DNA of 64,000 nucleotides, from contig NZ_JAHCMU010000003.1 in assembly GCF_018449435.1 (NCBI RefSeq), positions 124,001-188,000 on the forward strand, written 5' to 3'. The position numbers and the translations under genes were made by a program. The number at the start of each line of letters is the position of its first letter. Positions within the stretch are counted from its first letter, which is position 1. The notes beneath the pieces were generated by a model. The model was not told where the DNA came from. It searched no databases and saw only the letters and a program-made list of their open reading frames with translations. The DNA comes from Flagellimonas sp. 389. Its GTDB lineage: Bacteria > Bacteroidota > Bacteroidia > Flavobacteriales > Flavobacteriaceae. Below, piece by piece: positions 61,289 through 64,000 of the stretch.

Positions 61289-62200
61289 ATGAAACACTTT
61301 AAAAAATTGTCATCTTATTTAGATTATTTAGGACTGCCTCGACCAGAGCATCCAATGTTTAGTGTTTTTAACTCAAAAGGCGATGGTTATCTACCTTGTC
61401 CGCGAGAAAGTTCGCCACCAATTACCAATGATTGCTATTCCATTAGTTTTAAAAAATACGTAAAAGGTAATTTAAACTATGGGCGAACGAAATATGATTT
61501 CACCAATGGGGCTTTAATTTTCATTGCTCCAAGACAAGTTTTACAATGGGATAATAGCGTTGTTTTTGAGCAAAAAGGCTTTTCAATTAATTTCCACGAA
61601 GATTTTTTGAAAGGGACAGCATTAGCCCAACAAATAAAGAAATACGGTTTCTTTTCTTATTCAGTAAACGAAGCATTACATCTTTCACCTAAAGAAGAAA
61701 AGCAAATAGAATCGATAGTAGAAACGATTGAAATTGAATATCAAAATAATCAAGATGTCTATAGCAAAGAAATCATAATTTCTCAATTGGACACCCTGTT
61801 AAAATATGCCAATCGTTTTTATGAAAGACAGTTTTTAAACAGAAAAGAAATATCAAACGATTTGTTGGAACAATTTAATCAACATTTAACTGAATATTTT
61901 GAATCAGGTCAATTGCAAGAAAAAGGCATTCCAAGTATAGAACAAATCACAGATAAAATGTCCGTTTCGCAACGTTACTTAAGTGATACTCTAAAAAAAG
62001 AAACAGGTAAAACCACAACCGAACACTTACACTTACACCTGATTGATGAAGCAAAAAATATACTATTACAACCAAATAAGAGTATTTCAGAAGTGGCGTA
62101 TGAATTAGGGTTTGAATATCCACCCTATTTTTCGAGATTATTCAAAAAGAAAGAAGGCATAAGTCCAACCGAGTATAGAGAAAAATATAAACTAAACTAA
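61289..62200 (+). CDS. AraC-family transcriptional regulator
   Basis: A 303-residue protein with an N-terminal cupin-like sensing domain (about 30-160) and a C-terminal pair of helix-turn-helix motifs: MSVSQRYLSDTLKKETGKT and SISEVAYELGFEYPPYFSRLFKKKEGISPTEYR. It presumably regulates the SDR gene and itself. The 9-bp and 1-bp spacings on either side mean a three-gene operon. Confidence 0.92.
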   Translation: MKHFKKLSSYLDYLGLPRPEHPMFSVFNSKGDGYLPCPRESSPPITNDCYSISFKKYVKGNLNYGRTKYDFTNGALIFIAPRQVLQWDNSVVFEQKGFSINFHEDFLKGTALAQQIKKYGFFSYSVNEALHLSPKEEKQIESIVETIEIEYQNNQDVYSKEIIISQLDTLLKYANRFYERQFLNRKEISNDLLEQFNQHLTEYFESGQLQEKGIPSIEQITDKMSVSQRYLSDTLKKETGKTTTEHLHLHLIDEAKNILLQPNKSISEVAYELGFEYPPYFSRLFKKKEGISPTEYREKYKLN

Positions 62201-62201
62201 A

Positions 62202-62717
62202 ATGGAATTATTAAAATTAGCCACAGAATGGGCAAAGTCTGAAGTATTTTCAACACGTTTCTTCATCTTCTTTGCCATTTTATTTTTAATCGCAAGTATT
62301 GGGTTTTGGCAGTTGGGAAAAACGGACTTAGCAAAGGCTTACATCATTCCAACCTTGGTAGCAGGTTTATTACTTATGACCATAGGACTTGGTTTATTTT
62401 ACACCAACAAATCAAGAATTACCCAATTTAAAAAAGCGTTCAATAGCGATACACCAGCCTTTTTTCTGTCCGAAATTGAACGTTCCGAAAGCACATTAAA
62501 AGAATACACAGTCGTATTTAAGGCAATTCCAATTTTAATTATTGTAGCAGCATTACTAATTCTATTTATTAATACGCCAACTTGGAGAGCAGTTAGCATA
62601 ACAACGATTGCGATGCTGATAGTTATCTTATTAGTTGACGGAACTGCCTATGCGAGAATTGAAGCCTACCGTAAAGAATTGAAATTGGTGCATATAGAAA
62701 ATAAAATCATAAAATAA
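62202..62717 (+). CDS. four-helix membrane protein of the SDR/AraC cassette
   Basis: A 171-residue protein with four hydrophobic helices (about 19-37, 45-67, 107-126 and 132-150), joined by a short charged cytoplasmic loop (NKSRITQFKKAFNSD...EIERSES). No family is recognised. It is 1 bp after the regulator gene and so belongs to that operon. It may be a sensor or transport partner. Confidence 0.7.
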   Translation: MELLKLATEWAKSEVFSTRFFIFFAILFLIASIGFWQLGKTDLAKAYIIPTLVAGLLLMTIGLGLFYTNKSRITQFKKAFNSDTPAFFLSEIERSESTLKEYTVVFKAIPILIIVAALLILFINTPTWRAVSITTIAMLIVILLVDGTAYARIEAYRKELKLVHIENKIIK

Positions 62718-63092
62718 CCACACACAACAAAGAATATAAAGCATAGCTAGTAAGTGCTAATTCGCAAGGTTCTTACTCTTGAGTAAGTTCGTCGGATCTA
62801 TGATAGTGAACTGGAGCGAAAAGTAGAAGTTGTATTAGAAAAATGAAAATAAGAAAATGGTATATAACCACCGTATAAAAATGCATTGAAACGAATTTTA
62901 CACTAAATGTTCAAGTTAATGCTGCGCTGCGCATCAACTCGAATGACGCAGGCGGCTACCCCAATCTGAACTGCACACAACGCAGCGCAAACCAAAACTG
63001 ACCGCTTAGTACATTTCACTTCAAGCAAGATATTCCATACCTTGTTGCTGGAAAGCGGACCATTGCCATCCACGTCATTAGCATCAATAAAA
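62718..63092. other. 375-bp structured region between cassettes
   Basis: Contains a perfect CTTACTC-TT-GAGTAAG hairpin (62772-62787), a vestigial 11-codon ORF ending in GTATAA (62844-62879), repeat copy A, and the TGCGCTGCG/CGCAGCGCA inverted repeat (62923-62931 and 62981-62989). This looks like recombination-related structure, not coding DNA. Confidence 0.6.
62873..62958. repeat. cassette-border repeat, copy A
   Basis: 86 bp beginning GTATAAAAATGCATT, with a hairpin formed by AGTTAATGC and GCATCAACT, then TCGAATGACGCAGGCGGCTA. It aligns over its full length with copy B at 63570-63660. Confidence 0.8.
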
Positions 63093-63575
63093 ATGGGAAT
63101 TGAATTAGAAATATTCTATTTGTATAAAATCACATCTGATGAGAATAAAGAGACAAATGTTCTTATTAGATGTACTCGTGAGGAATTCCCTAATTATAGC
63201 CAGACTAAGGAAAATCAAGTCAATAAAGATGTTGAATCTAAGAAGGATGTTTTGTTAAAAAGCTTCATAATTCAAAATTTAGTAGCTAATAAAGAAAATA
63301 CAAAAGTAGAATTTTTGGGTGAAATGCAAGTAAACACATTTGGAGACGAATTATATGAAATTGAAAATAAAGAATTGACCATATATGTTGCCGATACAGA
63401 GTATGGATTTCCTTGGATTACAATTGGGCAAGCAGATTCAAAAATGGATTTCACCAAAAAAATGAAAGATGATGAAATTTATGATTCCGAAATGGGAATA
63501 TTAAGCCTTAATCCCAAAGTTGAAACACTTAGAAAGCTAAAAATAGAATTAATAACAGAAGCTAACACTGTGTAA
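63093..63575 (+). CDS. orphan protein of unknown family between two repeats
   Basis: A 160-residue acidic protein starting MGIELEIFYLYKITSDENKE, with no signal peptide or membrane helix. Strands alternate with charged loops (VEFLGEMQVNTFGDELYEI, DTEYGFPWITIGQAD). I do not recognise a family. The ATG at 63093 is preferred over 63042, whose upstream sequence lies in the repeat-rich intergenic DNA. Its stop codon lies inside repeat copy B, so gene and repeat form one unit. Confidence 0.65.
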   Translation: MGIELEIFYLYKITSDENKETNVLIRCTREEFPNYSQTKENQVNKDVESKKDVLLKSFIIQNLVANKENTKVEFLGEMQVNTFGDELYEIENKELTIYVADTEYGFPWITIGQADSKMDFTKKMKDDEIYDSEMGILSLNPKVETLRKLKIELITEANTV

Positions 63576-63660
63576 AAATGCATTTTAATGCATTTTACTC
63601 AACCCGTTAGAGTTAATGCTCCGTTGCGTCCCGCCTCAACTCGAATAACACGGGCGGCTA
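63570..63660. repeat. cassette-border repeat, copy B
   Basis: 91 bp beginning GTGTAAAAATGCATT, with hairpin GAGTTAATGC / GCCTCAACTC and TCGAATAACACGGGCGGCTA; outer arms CGTTAG and CTAACG enclose it. It includes the stop codon (63573-63575) of the preceding ORF. Confidence 0.8.
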
Positions 63661-63674
63661 ACGCCACAAGTTGG

Positions 63675-64000
63675 ATGAATAAACTAATTGAAAAACCACA
63701 TCTGATTTTTTTACTGGCTATTCCAATAATACTATTGATTGGAATTTTGAGTGGAGATGCTGTATTGGACATCAATGTTCACGATACTTATTATGTAATT
63801 ACTTATTTGCATTCTGCAATAATGATTTCTGCATTCTTTGGAATAATCGGAACTGGATATTGGATCATGCAAAAAGTGGGCAGAAAATTATCAAAATGGT
63901 TAAATTGGATTCACATTGGACTGACTTTTGGCGGAACTATAGTTGTCTGGATTTTAACCAAGCTTTATCGGACTGACATTATGGAATATGAATTCAATAA
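63675..64000 (+). CDS. free-standing heme-copper oxidase subunit I fragment, 3' end beyond the window
   Basis: A 108-codon ORF, open at the window end. HDTYYVITYLH (residues 36-46) matches helix X of cytochrome oxidase subunit I (HDTYYVVAHFH), and WIHIGLTFGGT (78-88) matches helix XI (KIHFAIMFVG). By this alignment H36 and D37 correspond to the magnesium-site residues, H46 to the low-spin heme ligand, but the high-spin heme histidine is Y44. Three helices are visible. It cannot be a complete oxidase subunit. The preceding codons have a fresh start 14 bp after repeat B. Confidence 0.7.
   Translation, partial: MNKLIEKPHLIFLLAIPIILLIGILSGDAVLDINVHDTYYVITYLHSAIMISAFFGIIGTGYWIMQKVGRKLSKWLNWIHIGLTFGGTIVVWILTKLYRTDIMEYEFN

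Follow-up and report, generated by a model that had tools for sequence, protein, structure and literature searches.

A small membrane protein corresponding to the last third of a respiratory enzyme exists as a stand-alone gene in marine bacteria, and it seems to be kept there for something besides heme binding. The gene was found at the 3′ edge of a 64,000-nucleotide stretch of DNA from Flagellimonas sp. 389, which was analysed as a whole and is called here the window (G000:C23:124001-188000, part of a 4.16-Mb genome). Sequence comparisons indicate homology between its product and helices IX-XII of CtaD, the subunit I of the aa3 oxidase that the same genome encodes. Pieces of respiratory enzymes are, to our knowledge, seldom seen as free-standing, selected and mobile genes. 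A literature search, with most subscription papers and preprints outside its reach, returned no description of such a stand-alone COX1-fragment family.

A previous sequence-only reading of the window had described a COX1-like protein with its own start and had proposed completing its ORF. Once completed (L004:4676-5107), the frame was found to be open to its stop codon, 106 bases beyond the window, with no internal stops. An alternative in-frame ATG at 63588 would give 172 aa, but the start listed in Table 1 was preferred because relatives share a methionine at this position, several of them with a stop codon directly 5′ of it. From motif spacing and COX1 ligand assignments, we take H36-D37 to be the Mg-site pair, Y44 the position of the heme a3 ligand and H46 that of the heme a ligand, which agrees with the earlier assignment of tyrosine to the high-spin position, H46 to the low-spin position and a kept H36-D37.

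Table 1. Features at the 3′ edge of the window (positions of the window; all on the forward strand where a sign is given)
Feature	Position	Strand	Remarks
Repeat, first copy	62869..62958	+	75-81% identical to second copy
160-aa ORF	63093..63575	+	flanked by both repeats, in the manner of a cassette
Repeat, second copy	63566..63660	+	between the upstream ORF and the COX1-like gene
Stand-alone gene resembling the CtaD C-terminus	63675..64000 in the window, ending at 64106 beyond it	+	first 326 of 432 bases inside the window; product of 143 aa
Codons of residues 32-46, DINVHDTYYVITYLH	63768..63812	+	conserved loop D32, N34, H36, D37, T38, Y39, then former heme-ligand positions Y44 and H46; H36-D37 at 63780-63785, Y44 at 63804-63806, H46 at 63810-63812

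The helix X and XI signatures of COX1 recognised in the earlier reading held up in the profile searches that it had proposed, and the similarity is, by sequence scores, well above chance. The window protein matched Pfam PF00115 (COX1) at 1.4e-8, with 34.4 bits and thus just below the gathering score of 34.8, and the NCBIfam CtaD model TIGR02891 at 2e-12, with residues 12-141 aligned on profile positions 337-473 and a score of 46.6 bits against a cut-off of 670.75. BLASTP against the CtaD of the same genome, which is whole and comprises 609 aa (L001), gave 2e-13 and 42% across 66 aa, and the same-genus relative L038 reached 36% with this CtaD in a 140-column stretch that extends past the XI-XII loop to the C-terminus. 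PF00115 was matched by 18 of 20 relatives at E ≤ 0.01, and a PDB search with a profile built from the window fragment and 19 relatives recovered 33 distinct sequences at the same threshold, all of COX1 type (best 2.1e-11).

The fold was evaluated on a model of L112, a Winogradskyella protein 84% identical to the window protein (mean pLDDT 87.9, pTM 0.78). This model presented helices at 8-25, 44-67, 74-96, 105-125 and 128-138 and a loop with two strands, amounting to four membrane-length helical stretches, in contrast to the twelve or more helices of a functional CtaD. Foldseek returned no match for it at E ≤ 0.001. In a second structure comparison, the top eight matches belonged to the heme-copper oxidases and the quinol nitric oxide reductases, aligned in register on their helices IX-XII (Z 8.4-10.4, rmsd 4.2-5.5), with an unrelated entry next at Z 8.3. 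The fold evidence is therefore modest, and the claim of COX1 homology is carried by the sequence evidence. The loop charges, with no K/R and three D/E in the first loop and four K/R and no D/E in the second, fit the orientation of CtaD, in which the DxNxHDTY loop would lie outside. A match to PF15088 (complex I KFYI subunit) at residues 77-111, with 28.4 against a cut-off of 27, occurred in 2 of 20 members and was taken as a chance likeness of one helix; complex I KFYI chains also appeared in the single-sequence PDB search (best 4.4e-4).

The families of such short proteins in Bacteroidota that the earlier reading had suggested looking for do occur. Within the genus, 22 of 60 genomes contained a stand-alone gene whose open frame spans 141-194 aa, and the same search in 39 out-of-genus genomes gave matches of CtaD length or one of 193 aa beginning at a contig end. 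Among 397 Flavobacteriaceae genomes, at least 65 rows of stand-alone size were found in at least 61, and a search of 395 Bacteroidota genomes at E ≤ 1e-14 located stand-alone rows in Flavobacteriaceae and, outside it, in three genomes (G551, G638, G642) that belong to a single other family of the class. The best 80 of 533 relatives in the named collection fell cleanly into two length classes, 104-169 aa (23 proteins) and 461-630 aa (57 proteins), the named carriers of the short form including Winogradskyella, Hanstruepera, Flagellimonas, Mangrovimonas, Tamlana, Bizionia, Tenacibaculum, Aestuariibaculum, Maribacter, Flavobacterium and Aquimarina.

A quick tree was built from 84 stand-alones and 28 of the 57 CtaDs, and the two groups fell on opposite sides of one branch with an SH-aLRT of 100. 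Only this gross split was used, since 55 of the 108 inner branches remain open and long branches meet in places. The split indicates that the stand-alones are one old family, not the product of repeated truncation, and recent or repeated truncation of CtaD is disfavoured by it and by the substitution rates. The dN/dS ratio was 0.07-0.30 by NG86 in nine pairs of relatives and 0.18-0.47 by YN00 in seven, which points to a family kept by purifying selection; the closest pair, formed by the window gene and L034, had the highest values (0.30 and 0.47, respectively) and hence a weaker selection signal. Two fixed chromosomal places were recognised, one next to an rluB-like gene (13 loci) and the other next to tsaD- and rsmE-like genes (9 loci), the names of these neighbours being presumptive assignments from sequence. 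The tsaD-adjoining group forms one branch on the tree, and the rluB-adjoining group needs two changes.

Another part of the family seems to be borne by cassettes. The cassette test covered 16 rows with a start motif, which correspond to 13 distinct loci, since L116, L118 and L120 repeat L035, L065 and L086. In 9 of the 16 rows and 9 of the 13 distinct loci, a 3′ box was found to pair with the gene's own 5′ start at 9 of 10 positions, of which the pattern itself fixes three, against 3-7 of 10 bases for the pairing of the preceding site with the start in the eight cases with a candidate. The boxes are identical in eight of the nine paired relatives, which are not independent, and the telling case is the ninth, L058, in which the two boxes have changed in concert (GTTGCCC with GGGCAAC). 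At the remaining four distinct loci, there was no pairing or a box was missing. These boxes indicate that nine relatives in the clade of the window gene sit in cassettes of integron type. Like integron gene cassettes, these relatives consist of one ORF between a pairing GTT... start and ...AAC end, in tandem with other ORFs, and at one locus (L056) a recombinase lies just upstream.

The earlier reading was right about a mobile-looking setting. At the window, repeats flank the ORF upstream of the COX1-like gene. The leader GCCACAAGTTGG, after the second repeat, resembles GTTAGCCACAAGTTGA, the cassette start of relatives. A search of the genome for the repeat recovered only the two copies in Table 1, which were not clearly structured when folded as DNA (z of -1.9 and -0.2 on the forward strand and -1.9 and 0.0 on the other). 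The window copy, which was not among the 16 tested rows, presents an altered 5′ leader (GGCTAACGCCACAAGTTGG), and no 3′ box was seen. Unlike an integron cassette, it has no recognised 3′ site, and the recombinases of its genome stay below the integron cut-off: the best match to the integron integrase model TIGR02249 had 82 bits against a cut-off of 265, and no recombinase passed, the same model giving below-cut-off matches in all 14 controls. The window copy looks like a stranded cassette that retains only a worn 5′ frame. The 160-aa ORF had no Pfam match up to an E-value of 1, and it was also observed next to a stand-alone relative in another genome (G050). Further upstream, positions 62202-62717 encode a predicted 171-aa membrane protein with weak family matches, directly after a gene for an AraC-type regulator (61289-62200). 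In a search for RNA families, one Rfam match was obtained, with an E-value of 0.32 and below the gathering score.

Integrons have been reported in Bacteroidota (PMC8618304, PMC9668308). Two tyrosine recombinases, 388 and 376 aa long and extended at the N-terminus by ~100 aa, were observed close upstream of stand-alones in L056 (1279-2442, G403) and L080 (1255-2382, G207). The former, directly upstream of the cassette, scored 203 bits with the integron integrase model (cut-off 265) and 216 with a broader recombinase model (cut-off 220). The latter scored 204.5 bits with the integrase model and passed the broader recombinase/integron model with 223.4 against 220. Possibly, both belong to an integron-like system of Flavobacteriaceae that is missed by the standard model.

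Transfer between genera fits the divergence of the clade. The window gene and that of Winogradskyella L112 share 86.7% nucleotide identity with a dS of 0.42, in comparison to 75-76% for the CtaD genes of these genera, taken from other Winogradskyella isolates, with a dS of 2.75 in one pair and undefined in two, and protein identity was similar in both comparisons (84% and 86%). Since the stand-alone gene diverged less than CtaD between the same genera, its sequence fits a movement of the window's clade between them. A role as phage or plasmid cargo was discarded: there was no phage match, and none of the 144 viral-contig stretches that fit a search pattern encodes a relative; of 10 matched plasmid records, 8 are annotated as oxidase genes and 2 have no listed feature.

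The residues conserved in the family were counted in 79 members, in which Y39 was present in 79, Q126 in 78, T38 in 76, N34 in 73, D37 and F12 in 67 each, Y62 in 63, H80 in 62 and H36, D32 and N132 in 60 each. Fixed in the family are the periplasmic DxNxHDTY loop, the helix-XI histidine and the glutamine and asparagine of helix XII, which are also common to the 57 Bacteroidota CtaDs, the loop shared with them reading DINVHDTY, with F12, D32, I33, N34, H36, D37, T38, Y39, V41, G59, H80, Q126 and N132 as the columns kept in both. K7, G61 and Y62 are conserved in the family, unlike CtaD, although G61 and Y62 may reflect the alignment register. H36 and D37 occur together in 50 of the 79 members, so that the Mg site is not strictly kept.

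It is tentatively proposed, as the reading we favour, that the fragment is a membrane protein without a catalytic role, whose retained periplasmic DxNxHDTY loop serves to bind a partner. By sequence, the last four helices (IX-XII) of a Bacteroidota aa3 subunit I have become a free-standing family, old and under selection, which in the clade of the window gene has moved between genera. The fragment cannot be an oxidase by itself, with eight helices missing along with the copper ligands and the second heme a ligand, and with no conservation of its two remaining heme-ligand positions. In the oxidase, the DxNxHDTY loop is adjacent to the heme propionates and to the Mg site that is shared with subunit II, and for this reason the likeliest partner would be the oxidase itself, with subunit II or an intermediate of CtaD assembly as the point of contact. 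The fragment would stabilise this partner, act as its chaperone or hold it back, and the interference with oxidase assembly suggested in the earlier reading is thereby retained within the favoured proposal. The four-helix homology, the dN/dS values, the tree split, the kept loop columns, the orientation, the low divergence and the cassette boxes speak for loop binding. Against it, the neighbourhoods of the stand-alone loci show no recurring gene for the oxidase or its assembly, the commonest neighbours being rluB- and tsaD-like, and the conserved residues may serve only to maintain the fold. Little can be drawn from co-occurrence with CtaD, given some match in 383 of the 397 family genomes. 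The more specific proposal, that a cassette-borne fragment of subunit I uses the old Mg-site loop to dock on the host oxidase and modulates the assembly or activity of that enzyme, is rather unlikely; if it were true, a horizontally acquired gene could alter respiration. In any case, the family lets one ask whether mobile cassettes act on the host terminal oxidase, and, with its fixed-place lineages and its cassette-borne branch, it offers a clean case in which to study how a catalytic membrane domain loses its cofactors and is put to new use. The likeness to COX1 could also cause errors in annotation and in surveys of respiratory genes.

Nearly level with loop binding, which remains favoured, is the possibility that the four-helix scaffold was reused outside respiration as cassette cargo, for example in a membrane sensor, a stress response or a phage-related cassette function, with the kept residues preserving the fold. 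The fast divergence between subfamilies with long branches, the family-specific K7, G61 and Y62 (the last two perhaps by alignment register) and the want of oxidase neighbours would suit such a role, as would the cassette setting, given that membrane proteins are common in cassettes (PMC8618304). However, the best-conserved loop corresponds to a region of CtaD whose location, at the active site and subunit II, is known. A defence gene was also considered and rejected: 1 of 20 members matched a PADLOC defence model (PycTM, 4.8e-4) and two weakly matched phage families, which is not convincing.

Improbable is the suggestion of the earlier reading that the protein still binds one heme, which it would do through H46, either alone or as a homodimer. 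Histidine is found at position 46 in the window protein and in 39 of the 79 members, with aspartate in 13 and tyrosine in 10, and at position 44 in 9; both positions carry it in 2 members and neither in 33, and in comparison with the 57 CtaDs both heme positions are lost in the family. On the tree, the state of H46 changed at least 21 times among 77 scored rows, 37 of them with histidine. The other axial ligand of heme a is located on helix II of COX1, which the window protein does not have. As the heme-ligand histidines are not conserved, heme binding was rejected as a conserved role of the family. The protein also differs from a functional CtaD in that the pair of helix-X histidines is incomplete (Y44, H46) and in its lack of the copper ligands and the helix-II heme ligand, which in COX1 precede profile position 337 of CtaD, where the match begins. 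Relative to the 609-aa CtaD, the fragment lacks helices I-VIII, its heme-ligand positions are not conserved, and it is a separate gene with no CtaD neighbour, although helices IX-XII are homologous and the orientation is the same by loop charges. In L091 (2548-3453), two stand-alone members were observed in tandem, the second with histidine at both former heme-ligand positions.

It is more doubtful still that the gene is a decaying CtaD fragment without function. A stop was found inside the match in 5 of the 65 listed stand-alone rows of Flavobacteriaceae, the copy in L054 is split into two ORFs, and the window copy is without a recognised 3′ cassette site. Nevertheless, the frame of the window gene is intact with its own start, dN/dS was below 1 in all nine pairs, and the stand-alones are not nested among CtaDs; the gene does not look like the ordinary frameshifted COX1 pseudogene that the earlier reading had contemplated.

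Least credible of all is a split oxidase, with the N-terminal part of CtaD encoded by a separate gene and completed by the fragment: at 80 stand-alone loci, covering about 2.4-14 kb per side, no ORF was matched by the N-terminal 400 aa of the CtaD of the window genome (57 hits, all of them at L112 or higher-numbered loci), and this genome has a whole CtaD. A split COX1-like subunit is mentioned for the cbb3 oxidase of Midichloria (PMC4013037), where likewise part of subunit I is a separate protein, but the window genome keeps its whole CtaD and the heme-ligand positions of the fragment drift.

Within the stand-alones, a deeply split subfamily of 16 rows was observed on a branch of 2.56 (L030, L031:14052-14537, L032, L033, L069, L076, L080, L092, L098-L100, L102 and L104-L107). 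The DINVHDTY-like loop is kept in the rows inspected and the helix-XI histidine is not, and this subfamily may have a role of its own.
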